Shown here piece after piece: positions 20,368-25,441 of a DNA stretch of 33,945 nt. The number at the start of each line of letters is the position of its first letter. Position 1 is the first letter of the stretch. The notes beneath the pieces are model-generated. The model ran no database searches. It saw only the letters and a list, made by a program, of their open reading frames with translations, and was not told the DNA's origin. Location of the stretch: contig WHTB01000013.1 in the NCBI GenBank assembly GCA_009379735.1, positions 1 through 33,945 on the forward strand. Direction: 5' to 3'. The position numbers and the translations under genes are program-made. This DNA is from Propionibacteriales bacterium (GTDB lineage: Bacteria > Actinomycetota > Actinomycetes > Propionibacteriales > Nocardioidaceae).

Positions 20368-22074
20368 TCAGCTCGTGGTGCTGCCCGGCGGTGCGTGGGC
20401 CACACGGGAGGCGTGAACGCGTGCATGGGCGATGGCTTCGGGCGTGTGCACGAACAGGTGGCGTTCGTGGGCGAGGCCGTCATGGACGCCGAGCTCTCGC
20501 AGAACCCGTTCGTGGTGTGCTTGGACACCAGAGAGCAGCACCGTGATCCCGCGGCCTTCGAGCTGGGCGATGGTGTCGGCGAGCACGTGCGCGCCGGTGG
20601 CATCGATCGTGGTGACTCGTGACATCCGGAGTACGACCACCCGCACGTCGCTGACCTCGGCGAGCTCGAGCAGGAAGTCGTGGGCGGCGGCGAAGAACAG
20701 GGGCCCGTCGATGCGGTAGCACACGATGTGCTCGTCGAGCAGGGCCCGTTCCTCGTCGAAGTGGTCGCCCTCGTCGAGCGGCATCTCGTCGAGCCGGGCG
20801 GTGAGCGCGGTCTGTCGCAGGGCGACGAACCCGGCGACCACCAGGCCGACCAAGACCGCCGTCACCAGGTCGAACACGACGGTTGCGACCGCGGTGATCG
20901 CCAGGACGGCTGCGTCGCCCCTGGTCGCGCGGAGCAGAGCGCGCAGGCTCGACACTCTGACCATGTGCACGGCGGTGGCGATCAGTACGCCGGCCAGAGC
21001 TGCCAGCGGTATCTCGCCGACCCATCGGGCCGCCACCAGTACGACGGCGAGCAGAACGAGCGCATGGGTGACGGACGCCAGGCGTGAAGTGGCGCCAGAG
21101 CGCACATTGACCGCCGTACGTGCGATGGCCGCGGTCGCCGGGATCCCGCCGAAGAGGGGGGCACCGAGGTTGGCGAGCCCTTGGCCGACCAGTTCGCGGT
21201 CGGAGTCGTGGCGTTGACCCACGCTGATGGCGTCGGCAACGGTTGCCGAGAGCAGGCTCTCCAGGGCCGCCAGCGCGGCGACTGCGATCGCGGGCAGGAC
21301 GAGGGCGTCCAGGTCGGCAAGGGGGACCGTGGGCAGGGTCGGTGCCGGAAGCGCCGACGGGATGCTGTGGATCTGGACTGCTCCCAGGTTGAAGACCCCG
21401 TTGGCGACAGCCGCGGCGGCCACGGCGATCAACGAGCCGGGCAGGCTGGGTCGGACCCGGGCAAGGGTCAGAATGCCGACCACGACGGCCAGGGTCATGC
21501 CGACCGGGATCCAGACGGGATCGGCCAGCCAGGCACAGACCGCGCGCACGGCGAGCACCAGCACCTTCTCTGCGTGCACCTGGACACCCAGGGCCGCCGG
21601 GAGCTGCTGCAGCCCGATGATGAGCGCGATGCCGACGGTGAAGCCCTCGACGACCGGGATCGGCACGTAGCGGATGAACCGTCCCGCGCCGGCGTACCCG
21701 AGTCCGATCAAGATCAGGCCCGCCAGCAAACCGACCACCAGCACACCGTCGGCGCCGTACACGGCGATGATCGGCACCAGCACCACGGTCATGGCCCCGG
21801 TGGGCCCACTGACCTGGACCCGGCTGCCGCCGAAGACAGCGGCGAGCCCGCCCGCCACGATCGCCGTGATCAGCCCGGCGCCGGCGCCCATCCCGGAGCT
21901 GACGCCGAAGCCCAAGGCGAGTGGCAGCGCGACCAGCCCCACCATCAGGCCAGCAGTGAGGTCGCGGCCCGGCCGCGCGTGAGCCCAGTCCGCGCGACGC
22001 GGCAACAGCGCAACGGTGCGGGACAGCGGGCCGCGTAGCCAGACCGGGCCTGGTCGGGCCGATGAGCCGGTCAC
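20368..22074 (-). CDS. SulP-family anion transporter with STAS domain
   Basis: A 568-residue membrane protein: an N-terminal transport domain (about residues 30-430, some ten to twelve helices) with the SulP hallmarks LMVGLVALPLALGFG and VQVSGPTGAMTVVL, then a cytoplasmic STAS domain (about 445-550; RIDGPLFFAAAH, VVVLRMSRVTTIDATGAHVL). The family carries sulfate, bicarbonate or dicarboxylates. The GTG start overlaps the ArsR stop as GTGA. Pairing with an ArsR repressor suggests metal- or redox-responsive control of uptake. Confidence 0.9.
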   Translation of the reverse strand: MTGSSARPGPVWLRGPLSRTVALLPRRADWAHARPGRDLTAGLMVGLVALPLALGFGVSSGMGAGAGLITAIVAGGLAAVFGGSRVQVSGPTGAMTVVLVPIIAVYGADGVLVVGLLAGLILIGLGYAGAGRFIRYVPIPVVEGFTVGIALIIGLQQLPAALGVQVHAEKVLVLAVRAVCAWLADPVWIPVGMTLAVVVGILTLARVRPSLPGSLIAVAAAAVANGVFNLGAVQIHSIPSALPAPTLPTVPLADLDALVLPAIAVAALAALESLLSATVADAISVGQRHDSDRELVGQGLANLGAPLFGGIPATAAIARTAVNVRSGATSRLASVTHALVLLAVVLVAARWVGEIPLAALAGVLIATAVHMVRVSSLRALLRATRGDAAVLAITAVATVVFDLVTAVLVGLVVAGFVALRQTALTARLDEMPLDEGDHFDEERALLDEHIVCYRIDGPLFFAAAHDFLLELAEVSDVRVVVLRMSRVTTIDATGAHVLADTIAQLEGRGITVLLSGVQAHHERVLRELGVHDGLAHERHLFVHTPEAIAHARVHASRVAHAPPGSTTS

Positions 22075-22409
22075 TGCGCCCGGAGGGTGGGCGACAGCTC
22101 GGACTCCAGGTCACCCTGCGCGGCGATCAGCCCGGACAGGATGCTTCGGGCGGCCAGCAGCAAGTCGCGGACCTCGGGAACGCTCACCGAGTAGATCACC
22201 TCGCCTCCCTGGCGGTGGAAGACCACCAGGGAGGTTCGCCGCAGGACGGCAAGCTGTTGGGAGAGGTTGCTGGGCTCGATCGCGATCTTCTCGAGGAGCT
22301 CGTGCACGGCATGGTCGCGCTCCGACAGCAACTCCAGGATCCGGATCCGGGCGGGATGTCCGAGGGTCTTGAAGAACTCGGCCTTGGCTTGGTAGAGCGG
22401 GACGCTCAC
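22071..22409 (-). CDS. ArsR/SmtB-family repressor
   Basis: A 112-residue winged-helix repressor: AEFFKTLGHPARIRILELLSERDHAVHELLEKI, recognition helix IEPSNLSQQLAVLRRTSLV, wing VVFHRQGGEVIYSV. No cysteine is present in the chosen product, so the classic thiolate metal site of ArsR or SmtB is missing. The GTG at 22409 is preferred for length; an upstream ATG at 22457 would add 16 residues that include a Cys. It is the first gene of the operon with the SulP gene. Confidence 0.85.
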   Translation of the reverse strand: MSVPLYQAKAEFFKTLGHPARIRILELLSERDHAVHELLEKIAIEPSNLSQQLAVLRRTSLVVFHRQGGEVIYSVSVPEVRDLLLAARSILSGLIAAQGDLESELSPTLRAQ

Positions 22410-22477
22410 GGCACAGCCCACATGCTGTCGATTCCTTCGCGGGACGGAGGGCCTCATCCGAGGCAGTTATCTGCAGG

Positions 22478-22511
22478 CTACATGAGTTGCGCAGTTCTTC
22501 AAGTCGTGTAG
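22478..22511. promoter_or_regulatory. Inverted repeat upstream of arsR/sulP, possible ArsR operator
   Basis: CTACATGA (22478-22485) and TCGTGTAG (22504-22511) pair at seven of eight positions across an 18-bp spacer that contains TTGCGCA. The element lies in the divergent region between the ArsR gene and the PEPCK-like gene, at a distance suited to repressor binding over the minus-strand promoter. Confidence 0.4.
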
Positions 22512-22636
22512 CCTTCGGGGACACGCGGCGTCGTGGAACCCAGGTCGTGCGCTCCGGCGCGCAGTATCCGGGCGCACCGCAGCGTCGCGCCGCGACCAGG
22601 ACATCCCCAGCTCAACAGCAGCGAGAGGACGGAACC

Positions 22637-24481
22637 GTGGTGGCCGATGTTGAGAAGGTGTTGGACGAAGCCGGTCTGAATAACCCGAAGGTGCGCGAAT
22701 ACGTCTCCTTCTGGGCCGAGTTGACCGGCGCCGACCGGGTCGAGGTCGTCACTGCCGCCGACGACGCCCGGCTGATCAAGGAGTCGCTCGAGGCCGGCGA
22801 GATCCTGCCGGCCGGCGAGGGCCGCTACTACTCGCGCAGCTACCACAAGGACACGGCCCGTTCGGAGGAGCGGACGATCGTCGCCACCAGCGAGGCGGAG
22901 GACCGCGGCGTTTACAACAACTGGCGGCTGGCATCCGAGATGCAGCCGATCCTCGAGGAGCGGATGCGCGGGGCGTCGGCTGGCAAGATCATGTACGTCA
23001 TCCCGTACCTGATGGCGCCTCCCGGCTCCCCGCTCGAGCCGTACGCCGCCGGGGTCGAGCTCACCGACCACCGCACCGTCGTGCTGCACATGATCCGGAT
23101 GGCCCGTGTCGGCGTGCAGTACGTCGAGAACCTCACCGATCCGAGCAGCTTCGTGCGTGCCGTCCACGTCACGGGCGACCTGGAACACCTCGGTCAGGGC
23201 ACCCCCGACGACCAGCGCTACTTCGTCACCGTGGGCGACGAGCGCACGATCTTGCACTTCGGGTCGTCGTACGGCGGCAACGCGTTGCTGGGCAAGATCG
23301 CTCATGGGCTGCGTCAGGCGTCGTACGACGGCTGGGCATCGGGGAAGTTCCTGGCCGAGCAGTTCATGCTCATCGGCATCACCGACAAGGAGACCGGCCG
23401 GAAGTACCACATCTGTGGCGGCTTCCCGAGCGCATCGGGCAAGACCAACCTGGCGATGATGCTGGCCCCCGACGCCCTCGGCGACCGCTACCACGTCTCC
23501 TTCTACGGCGACGACATCGCCTGGCTGTGGGTCGACCCGGAGGACGGCAAGCTCTATGGCATGAACCCCGAGTTCGGCGTGTTCGGGGTGGCCAAGGACA
23601 CCAACGAGACCACCAACCCGACGGCGCTGAAGTCCGTGAGCGAGGGCAGCCAAGCGCTGTTCACCAACGTCGCCTACAACGAGGCGACCCACGAGGTGTG
23701 GTGGGAGGGCAAGACACCCGAGCCCCCGGTCGATGTGACTGGCTGGCGAGACTGGAAGGGCAGCCTGATCTCGGAACGTCCGAAGCGGAGTGACGAGCCG
23801 TGGTCGCACCCGAACTCCCGCTTCACCACGACGCTGGCCAACGTGCCCAACGTCGCCGCCGACTTCGAGGACCCCCGCGGTGTGCCCATCGACGCCATCA
23901 TCTTCGGTGGCCGCACGCGCGACCGCGAGCCGCTGATCCGCGCGATCACCGACCTGGCCGAGGGCATCTACGACGGGCTGACCCTCGGCGCCGAGGCGAC
24001 CTTCGCGGCGGAGGGCATCGACGGTCAGCTGCGCTACGACCCGATGTCGATGCGACCCTTCATGTCCTACCCCGAAGGCGCTTATGCCGCGCACTGGCTG
24101 AAGATCATCGGCCGGGCCAGCGAGCAGCCGATCTTCGCCCACGTGAACTGGTTCCAGCGCGACCCCGGAGACGACCACTTCCTGTGGCCCGGCTACCGCG
24201 ACAACCTGCGGCCGCTGCTCTGGCTCATGCGCCTCAAGAACGGCGAAGTCACCGGTCGACAGACGCCGGTCGGTATCCTCCCGACCGAGGACGAGCTCAA
24301 CCTCGAGGGCGTCAGCATCACGCCCGATGACCTTCAGACGATCCTGTCGATCGACATCGACCGGTGGCGAGAAGAAATCACGAACCGCGGACAACACCTG
24401 ACCCAGTTCGACAACCTGCCCGACGAGATCTGGAAGGCACACCGCCGGATCGCCGGAGCGCTTCGGGACGAGGCGGGCTGA
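22637..24481 (+). CDS. Divergent GTP-PEPCK-family protein with altered metal site
   Basis: A 614-residue protein alignable end to end with GTP-dependent PEP carboxykinase, which makes PEP and CO2 from oxaloacetate. Conserved parts include TARSEERT (R75), MYVIPYLM, GSSYGGNALLGK, a kinase P-loop FPSASGKTN (263-271), GDDIAW (291-296), HPNSRF, and NWF...FLWPG. Key differences from canonical enzymes are GKK changed to GK220-I221, LAEH changed to LAEQ242, and the P-loop Cys of PSACGKT changed to Ser267. In rat PEPCK the second Lys and the His are Mn2+ ligands and the Cys is hyper-reactive. It may be an active variant, an enzyme with other specificity, or an inactive paralogue. The GTG start follows GAGAGGACGG. 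Confidence 0.88.
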   Translation: MVADVEKVLDEAGLNNPKVREYVSFWAELTGADRVEVVTAADDARLIKESLEAGEILPAGEGRYYSRSYHKDTARSEERTIVATSEAEDRGVYNNWRLASEMQPILEERMRGASAGKIMYVIPYLMAPPGSPLEPYAAGVELTDHRTVVLHMIRMARVGVQYVENLTDPSSFVRAVHVTGDLEHLGQGTPDDQRYFVTVGDERTILHFGSSYGGNALLGKIAHGLRQASYDGWASGKFLAEQFMLIGITDKETGRKYHICGGFPSASGKTNLAMMLAPDALGDRYHVSFYGDDIAWLWVDPEDGKLYGMNPEFGVFGVAKDTNETTNPTALKSVSEGSQALFTNVAYNEATHEVWWEGKTPEPPVDVTGWRDWKGSLISERPKRSDEPWSHPNSRFTTTLANVPNVAADFEDPRGVPIDAIIFGGRTRDREPLIRAITDLAEGIYDGLTLGAEATFAAEGIDGQLRYDPMSMRPFMSYPEGAYAAHWLKIIGRASEQPIFAHVNWFQRDPGDDHFLWPGYRDNLRPLLWLMRLKNGEVTGRQTPVGILPTEDELNLEGVSITPDDLQTILSIDIDRWREEITNRGQHLTQFDNLPDEIWKAHRRIAGALRDEAG

Positions 24482-24784
24482 CAGGCTGGCCTCTCCGGCC
24501 GCGCGGGCTGAACAACAGGTCAAGCGCAGTCAGGAATCCCTGGCCTCCGCGTCCGCGTGTGATCTCCCGGGGCGTAGGTCTTCGGGTGGCACCGACCTCG
24601 GCGGTGATGGCTTCGGCGCGGCTCGGTGCGTAGCCGAGCATGCCCGCCACCCACCAACGGGACCCGCTCGGTGCGCCACAGCGCCGCGACGCTGACGCGA
24701 ATTCACCGTTCCGGGCCCCGTCGCGAACGCTCGTGTTCGGTGACCGTCCTGACCTGGTCCTTGCCTGGCCGACGCGGAGGACAG
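24482..24784. other. 303-bp gap between the PEPCK-like gene and ribA
   Basis: No gene with convincing start and codon pattern was found here. A minus-strand frame is open across the gap but lacks a ribosome site, continues as a shadow of ribA, and gives an Arg-rich product I do not recognise. A short GGCC-tctcc-GGCC hairpin follows the PEPCK stop without a T-run. It may be decayed coding DNA. Confidence 0.4.
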
Positions 24785-25441
24785 TCACAGAACGAGCTCG
24801 TGTCCGAGACGGTCGCGCTTCGTTCCTAGGTACGCGGCGTTCTCGGGCCTGGCGAGGGACGGCATCGGCACCCGGCTCGCCACCGTCACCGTGCTCGCCT
24901 CGAGGGCCGCGACCTTGTCGGGGTTGTTCGTCATCAACGACACGGTCTGGACGCCGAGGTCCTGGAGGATCAGGGGGACCGCGCCGTACTCCCGGGCATC
25001 CACGGGGAGCCCTAGCTGCTGGTTCGCTCCGACGGTGTCCCACCCGAGATCCTGCAGGGCGTACGCCCGGAGCTTGTCGGCGAGGCCGATCCCCCGCCCC
25101 TCGTGCCCGCGCAGGTAGACGATCACGCCGAGCCCGATCTTCCCGATCTGCTGCTGGGCGGCCCGAAGCTGATCCCCGCAGTCGCACCGCAGCGAACCGA
25201 GAGCGTCGCCGGTGAGGCACTCGGAGTGGATCCGTACGGTCACCTCGGGCTTGTCACGCACCTCGCCGAGCAGCAGCGCGACGTGGTCCGACCCGGCGCG
25301 GTTGTCGTGGTAGCCAACGGCGACGAACCGGCCATACCGAGTCGGGAGGTCCGCCACGGCTACCCGCACGATCCGCTGTCTCAGCCTCGGCGTTGACCTG
25401 GTCGTGGCCGCGTCGTGCGTCCTGGACACCGCGCCCCTCAC
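24785..25441 (-). CDS. ribA: GTP cyclohydrolase II, stand-alone
   Basis: A 218-residue enzyme that opens GTP to the pyrimidine precursor of riboflavin. The zinc-binding HSECLTGDALGSLRCDCG has all three cysteines, RGHEGRGIGL is the following active-site loop, and RAYALQDLGWDTVGANQQLG and LMTNNPDK complete the RibA pattern. It is not fused to a RibB (DHBP synthase) domain, unlike many bacterial RibBA proteins. The GTG at 25441 overlaps the stop of the truncated PLP-enzyme gene upstream as GTGA. It is probably a second, accessory copy; a flavin supply for nearby flavoenzymes is speculative. Confidence 0.92.
   Translation of the reverse strand: MRGAVSRTHDAATTRSTPRLRQRIVRVAVADLPTRYGRFVAVGYHDNRAGSDHVALLLGEVRDKPEVTVRIHSECLTGDALGSLRCDCGDQLRAAQQQIGKIGLGVIVYLRGHEGRGIGLADKLRAYALQDLGWDTVGANQQLGLPVDAREYGAVPLILQDLGVQTVSLMTNNPDKVAALEASTVTVASRVPMPSLARPENAAYLGTKRDRLGHELVL

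Follow-up and report, generated by a model that had tools for sequence, protein, structure and literature searches.

The Mn2+ site formed by Lys, His, and Asp is regarded as a core catalytic element of PEPCKs, and the same Lys/His/Asp logic at metal 1 is followed by ATP-PEPCK (EC 4.1.1.49), which belongs to the same superfamily as GTP-PEPCK (EC 4.1.1.32). The protein described here shows whole-length homology to GTP-PEPCKs, including M. tuberculosis Pck (PDB 4WOU, 4R43) and rat PCK1, at 36–37% identity. In rat PCK1, acetylation of K244 abolishes Mn2+ ligation at this residue and leaves approximately 1% of the activity (PMC7948413), and Gly338 has been named together with His264 among the residues that stabilize GTP (PMC4631375). 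PPi-PEPCK (EC 4.1.1.38) is evolutionarily unrelated to the ATP- and GTP-dependent enzymes (PMC8100219). At the level of regulation, LacI-family proteins control PEPCK together with glycolytic genes in the alphaproteobacterial PckR and GapR regulons (PMC4052901). Here, we analyzed a 33,945-nucleotide stretch of DNA from a Propionibacteriales bacterium (contig WHTB01000013.1; hereafter, the window), which encodes a GTP-PEPCK homolog in which two of the three metal-1 ligands and the reactive P-loop Cys have been replaced.

A full-length GTP-PEPCK homolog with substituted metal-1 ligands

The gene lies at positions 22,637–24,481 of the forward strand and encodes 614 residues, starting at GTG 22,637 (with GTG 22,640 as an alternative) and containing zero internal stops. 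An AGAGGA motif resembling a ribosome-binding site is located shortly upstream of the start and recurs ahead of other members of the clade described below. Both domains of the GTP-PEPCK family, PF00821 (400.8 bits) and PF17297 (192.4 bits), were matched at full length and above the curated cut-offs, and the NCBIfam equivalog model for GTP-PEPCK, NF003253, called the protein an ordinary PEPCK (621.6 bits, cut-off 504); the canonical paralog encoded in the same genome scored 997.6 with this model. The GDDIAW, P-loop GKTN, HPNSR, NWF, and FLWPGY..N motifs are intact, in agreement with the original prediction, made from the sequence alone, that the nucleotide loop, GDDIAW, and overall length are preserved. 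AF2 predicted a PEPCK fold (pLDDT 87.4, pTM 0.90), whose nearest solved structures are those of M. tuberculosis PEPCK (Z 43.7 to 4WOU, rmsd 2.1). The protein differs from ATP-PEPCK in possessing the GTP-PEPCK domains, and its full-length homology to GTP-PEPCK rules out its being a PPi-PEPCK. The entire gene is overlapped on the opposite strand by an open frame of 674 aa (22,499–24,523, reverse strand); such a frame is expected in GC-rich DNA and does not count as evidence of a gene.

The GKI, LAEQ, and PSASGKT motifs that had been read in place of the canonical GKK, LAEH, and PSACGKT were borne out at the DNA level, and a comparison of 122 variant and 49 canonical sequences (in which a few loci represent one gene counted twice) showed that they are fixed. 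The position of the metal-1 Lys (rat K244) is occupied by Ile221 (codon ATC, 23,297–23,299, forward strand, as for all codons given here) and that of the metal-1 His (rat H264) by Gln242 (CAG, 23,360–23,362), with Ile and Gln in 122/122 variants and Lys and His in 49/49 canonical sequences. The metal-1 ligand positions read I/Q/D throughout the clade (122/122), so that only the Asp of the Lys/His/Asp set is retained. Ser267 (TCG, 23,435–23,437) takes the place of the reactive P-loop Cys of the GTP-PEPCK family (rat C288) in all 122 variants; this Cys is present in 48/49 canonical sequences, the lone Ser being the C273S crystal construct. Beside the lost Lys, the active-site Cys (rat C245; 49/49 canonical) is replaced by Ala222 (23,300–23,302) in 122/122 variants, and both conserved active-site cysteines are thus absent from the clade. 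The changes cluster around metal 1, where a Tyr/Phe has also been replaced by His223. In the GTP-side loop, Lys320-Asp321 (23,594–23,599; Lys in 113/122, Asp in 122/122) substitutes for the canonical Pro-Gly (rat 337–338) and introduces new charges. At approximately 40 further sites, the 122 variants share a fixed or almost fixed residue that differs from the 49 canonical sequences. Depletion of cysteine extends to the whole protein, with 0–4 residues per variant (mean 1.3) against 5–13 per canonical protein (mean 8.7), ranges that do not overlap; the corresponding contents are 0.22% and 1.41%, compared with an average of 0.75% for the neighboring ORFs.

The residues for GTP, OAA/PEP, and metal 2 are common to the variant and GTP-PEPCK. 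In the alignment of variants, the P-loop, both Asp residues of GDD, and the R-loop Glu and Arg are invariant, and the guanine pocket is nearly so. The OAA/PEP-binding residues Arg75, Tyr212, Lys220, Asn393, and Arg395 are likewise invariant, which suggests that the substrate is OAA/PEP or a very similar compound. Comparison of the variants with canonical and archaeal-type enzymes identified no replacement metal-1 ligand. Asp321 was considered as a unique substitute ligand, and this proposal was weakened by the archaeal-type PEPCKs; since these carry the Asp while keeping Lys and His, Asp321 cannot be claimed as the replacement. The archaeal-type enzymes (L139, L140; ~30% identical) occur in other members of the actinobacterial phylum and also keep the Cys.

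The variant forms a separate clade

From the 335 encoding stretches detected in our scan of genome contigs, we retained the best 80 and added loci from whole genomes. The I/Q/S triplet was found in 122/122 clade members with zero exceptions, while K/H was found in 49/49 canonical sequences and K/H/C also in archaeal-type, proteobacterial, and Bacillota PEPCKs. Most clade members are 68–81% identical to the window protein and are distributed over several actinobacterial families, the named hosts including Aeromicrobium, Nocardioides, Mumia, Blastococcus, Modestobacter, Phycicoccus, and Sporichthya; a single member, from G535, falls outside the class. No intermediates between variant and canonical sequences were detected in class- and phylum-level sampling, in which the identity to the window protein drops from 68% to 44%. 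Phylogenetic analysis, which had been suggested with the triplet as a marker, placed the variants in a monophyletic group apart from the canonical enzymes and from characterized GTP-PEPCKs such as M. tuberculosis Pck (SH-aLRT 100; bootstrap/SH-aLRT of 100/99 in a second tree). The group is set on a long stem, and the position of the root is unsure because of the long branches.

The dN/dS of the window gene against six relatives is about 0.21–0.35, which, together with the triplet in 122/122 members, rules out decay and supports the earlier view of a conserved subfamily rather than a pseudogene. Independent homologs with the same residues exclude a sequencing error. Plasmids, considered as a possible origin, gave only distant matches with best identities of about 39%. 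We found no published account of this clade, or of natural PEPCKs devoid of Lys and His, in open-access text.

Occurrence alongside or in place of canonical PEPCK

The genome from which the window derives contains one other homolog, on contig C354, which is 41% identical to the window protein and carries GKK, LAEH, and PSACGKT; the second, canonical PEPCK that the original prediction proposed to look for is thus present. Among 345 genomes searched across the class, 38 carry the variant and 307 do not. The variant is the sole PF00821 protein in 24/38 variant-bearing genomes and is accompanied by a canonical gene in 14/38, while a PEPCK match is absent from 51/307 genomes without the variant. 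The variant is associated with absence of the canonical gene (odds ratio 8.6 with a Fisher p of 4e-9, or 4.3 with a p of 0.0009 when genus g19 is excluded), although the p values are only indicative because the genomes are related. On the variant tree, the variant-only state requires at least seven changes. ATP-PEPCK was found in none of the variant-bearing genomes searched.

Genus g19, which we infer to be Aeromicrobium, carries the variant alone in 12/12 genomes and GlpX FBPase in 12/12, and both PPDK/PEP synthase and ATP-PEPCK are absent from all 12. PEPC is present in 10/12 of these genomes, so the variant is not needed there for OAA synthesis, and isocitrate lyase is present in two. In four of the genomes (G018, G351, G141, G262; L083, L084, L085, L094), the PEP carboxylase gene is located ~4–11 kb from the variant. 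Aeromicrobium stalagmiti (L005) encodes both the variant and a canonical enzyme, and the genus Aeromicrobium is, therefore, not uniform. A. massiliense (L026) probably corresponds to variant-only genome G337. In API 20NE assimilation tests, this species was positive only for maltose and gluconate, with the other tests negative (PMC3569385), a pattern that gives no hint of organic acids being used for growth; a search of open-access text found no report of such growth for variant-only Aeromicrobium. Genome G106 (L159, L160) encodes two variant PEPCKs and one canonical enzyme; since its contamination is 5%, a mixed assembly is possible.

A putative operator shared with canonical PEPCK genes

Allowing up to two mismatches, the LacI-type site TKGATCGATCCAA was found upstream of 12/122 variants and 12/50 canonical genes and in 0/516 shuffles, and every strict match in 1.62 Mb of loci lies at a PEPCK gene. 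In seven loci (L173, L174, L176, L185, L186, L188, L190), the site is located near position 1501. Genome-wide searches of six genomes placed it also at the genes for pyruvate kinase, PFK, glycogen phosphorylase/GlgE, GlgX, and LacI-family regulators, as well as at two further places without an identified gene. In the variant-only genomes that have the site (G006, G344, G238, G365), it is found at the variant; among genomes with both genes, G012, G034, G159, G195, G204, and G298 have it at the canonical gene, whereas G168 has it at the variant. Neither the variant of the window nor the canonical paralog in its genome has the site. These matches point to TKGATCGATCCAA as the mark of a central-carbon regulon in Nocardioidaceae, with a LacI-type protein as its putative regulator, and no earlier report of such a regulon in this family was found in open-access text. 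The arrangement resembles the PckR and GapR regulons in the LacI-type control of PEPCK and glycolytic genes, but differs from them in phylum, in gene set, and in the putative status of the regulator.

Function of the variant

The occurrence, operator, and residue results are best read as pointing to a catalytic role at the PEP/OAA step, in which the variant would be a PEPCK, or a phosphotransferase of the PEP/OAA node, with a remodeled metal-1 site. With confidence slightly better than even, we consider the clade to be enzymatically active at the PEP–oxaloacetate step, most likely in the GTP-dependent conversion of OAA to PEP or in the reverse direction. The either/or occurrence and the shared operator suggest that the variant is able to replace canonical PEPCK, and the coexistence of both genes in 14/38 genomes indicates that their roles can differ. 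GTP and metal 2 would be bound as usual through Lys269, Thr270, and Asp292, and the catalytic metal would be held by oxygen ligands, namely Asp293 and perhaps Gln242 or Asp321, a coordination that would favor Mg2+ over Mn2+. Speculatively, the loss of Lys, His, and two cysteines may lower the dependence on Mn2+ and the sensitivity to oxidation or thiophilic metals. We propose only tentatively, as a possible but doubtful extension, a naturally evolved PEPCK that can do without the Lys- and His-bound Mn2+ regarded as essential to the family. Such an enzyme would probably operate with Mg2+ in an oxygen-ligand site, would withstand oxidation and thiophilic metals by being nearly Cys-free, and would have displaced canonical PEPCK repeatedly in actinobacteria. 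Several points speak against the favored catalytic reading, namely the ~1% activity that remains upon acetylation of rat K244 (PMC7948413), the API 20NE profile of A. massiliense (PMC3569385), the genomes with both genes, the absence of TKGATCGATCCAA from the window's own variant, and the comparison that yielded no replacement metal-1 ligand. A further such point is that PPi-PEPCK could provide an alternative source of PEP in variant-only genomes.

The loss of the metal-1 ligands, with retention of the residues for metal 2, GTP, and carboxylate binding, would also fit catalytic neofunctionalization, by which the variant became a GTP-dependent enzyme of the PEP/OAA node, either a kinase or a phosphotransferase, that acts on another small carboxylate and is controlled together with glycolysis and gluconeogenesis; with no enolate to stabilize, metal 1 would not be needed. 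The long stem, the ~40 fixed differences, and the genomes with both genes are in line with this scenario, which we rate as unlikely though far from negligible, since by itself it leaves unexplained both the tendency of the variant to occur without canonical PEPCK and the presence of the canonical-gene operator at variants, and the loci compared revealed no conserved neighbor pointing to another pathway. Had the protein instead become a sensor or regulator that binds GTP or PEP without catalysis, the disappearance of two metal-1 ligands and the reactive Cys would be readily understood. Such a non-catalytic role, which had been raised in the original prediction, is improbable in view of the invariance of the substrate, nucleotide, and metal-2 residues and of the other catalytic residues compared (including the P-loop Lys, both Asp residues, and the R-loop Arg), the variant's standing as sole PEPCK in 24/38 genomes, among them complete genomes of a genus in which no other known PEP-forming enzyme was found, and the canonical-gene operator in some genomes; moreover, no fixed partner protein was found at the loci compared. 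The changed chemistry raised beside it is plausible.

The conserved predicted fold and the acceptance by NF003253 (621.6 bits, cut-off 504) are what an ordinary PEPCK would show, one whose substitutions are nearly neutral, whose Mn2+ is adequately bound by Gln242 and Asp293, and whose kinetics and metal dependence are canonical. Neutral changes would vary, however, whereas the 122 variants show little or no variation at the triplet and ~40 other sites, which set them apart from the 49 canonical sequences; the cysteine counts of the two groups do not overlap, and modification of rat K244 is crippling (PMC7948413), which renders this possibility very remote. Under the favored reading of a catalytic enzyme with a remodeled metal-1 site, the widespread variant, as the only PEPCK in many bacteria, suggests that the reaction is feasible with a rebuilt metal site. 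An apparent PEPCK stand-in that has dropped two of three ligands would make the role of the metal in OAA decarboxylation and phosphoryl transfer addressable with natural enzymes. Because the equivalog model assigns the whole clade, whose activity is presumed, to ordinary PEPCK, there are consequences for metabolic models of Aeromicrobium, Nocardioides, Blastococcus, and their relatives.

Locus neighborhood and a candidate ArsR operator

No fixed operon partner that would name a function was found among the loci compared, where the commonest neighbor is an ArsR/SmtB-family regulator, located near the variant in 21 loci and usually divergent from it. In the window, this regulator is encoded at 22,071–22,457 (reverse strand), divergently from the PEPCK gene, and an upstream motif search identified a palindromic operator, GCTACATGAGTTGCGCAGTTCTTCAAGTCGTGTAGC, between the two genes (22,477–22,512, no strand assigned). 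A palindrome like CTACATGAGTTGAAGAACTCTTCAACTCGTGTAG precedes 29/115 distinct variant genes, that of the window included, with scores above 21 bits, compared with 13.3 for the best of 575 shuffles and no canonical gene above 11.2, a separation that is optimistic because these upstream regions had also served to train the matrix. In four of five genomes, the exact core was found at the variant promoter and in at most two other places each; the fifth genome (G378) gave no exact match. Given its presence near the variant in 21 loci, ArsR is probably the local regulator of the variant PEPCK through this palindrome. Where a canonical enzyme coexists, as in the window's genome, the ArsR-type regulator might, speculatively, switch the variant on when needed. 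Most ArsR proteins at variant loci are without cysteine, which weighs against metal sensing of the classical thiolate type. A GTP cyclohydrolase II domain protein, which is not a conserved neighbor, is encoded downstream of the PEPCK gene at 24,785–25,441 (reverse strand). A SulP-family transporter gene (20,368–22,074, reverse strand) lies downstream of the ArsR gene and overlaps it; it is accessory, occurring at 5 loci only, and among NCBIfam models it comes closest to the C4-dicarboxylate transporter DauA, at a score well below the cut-off.
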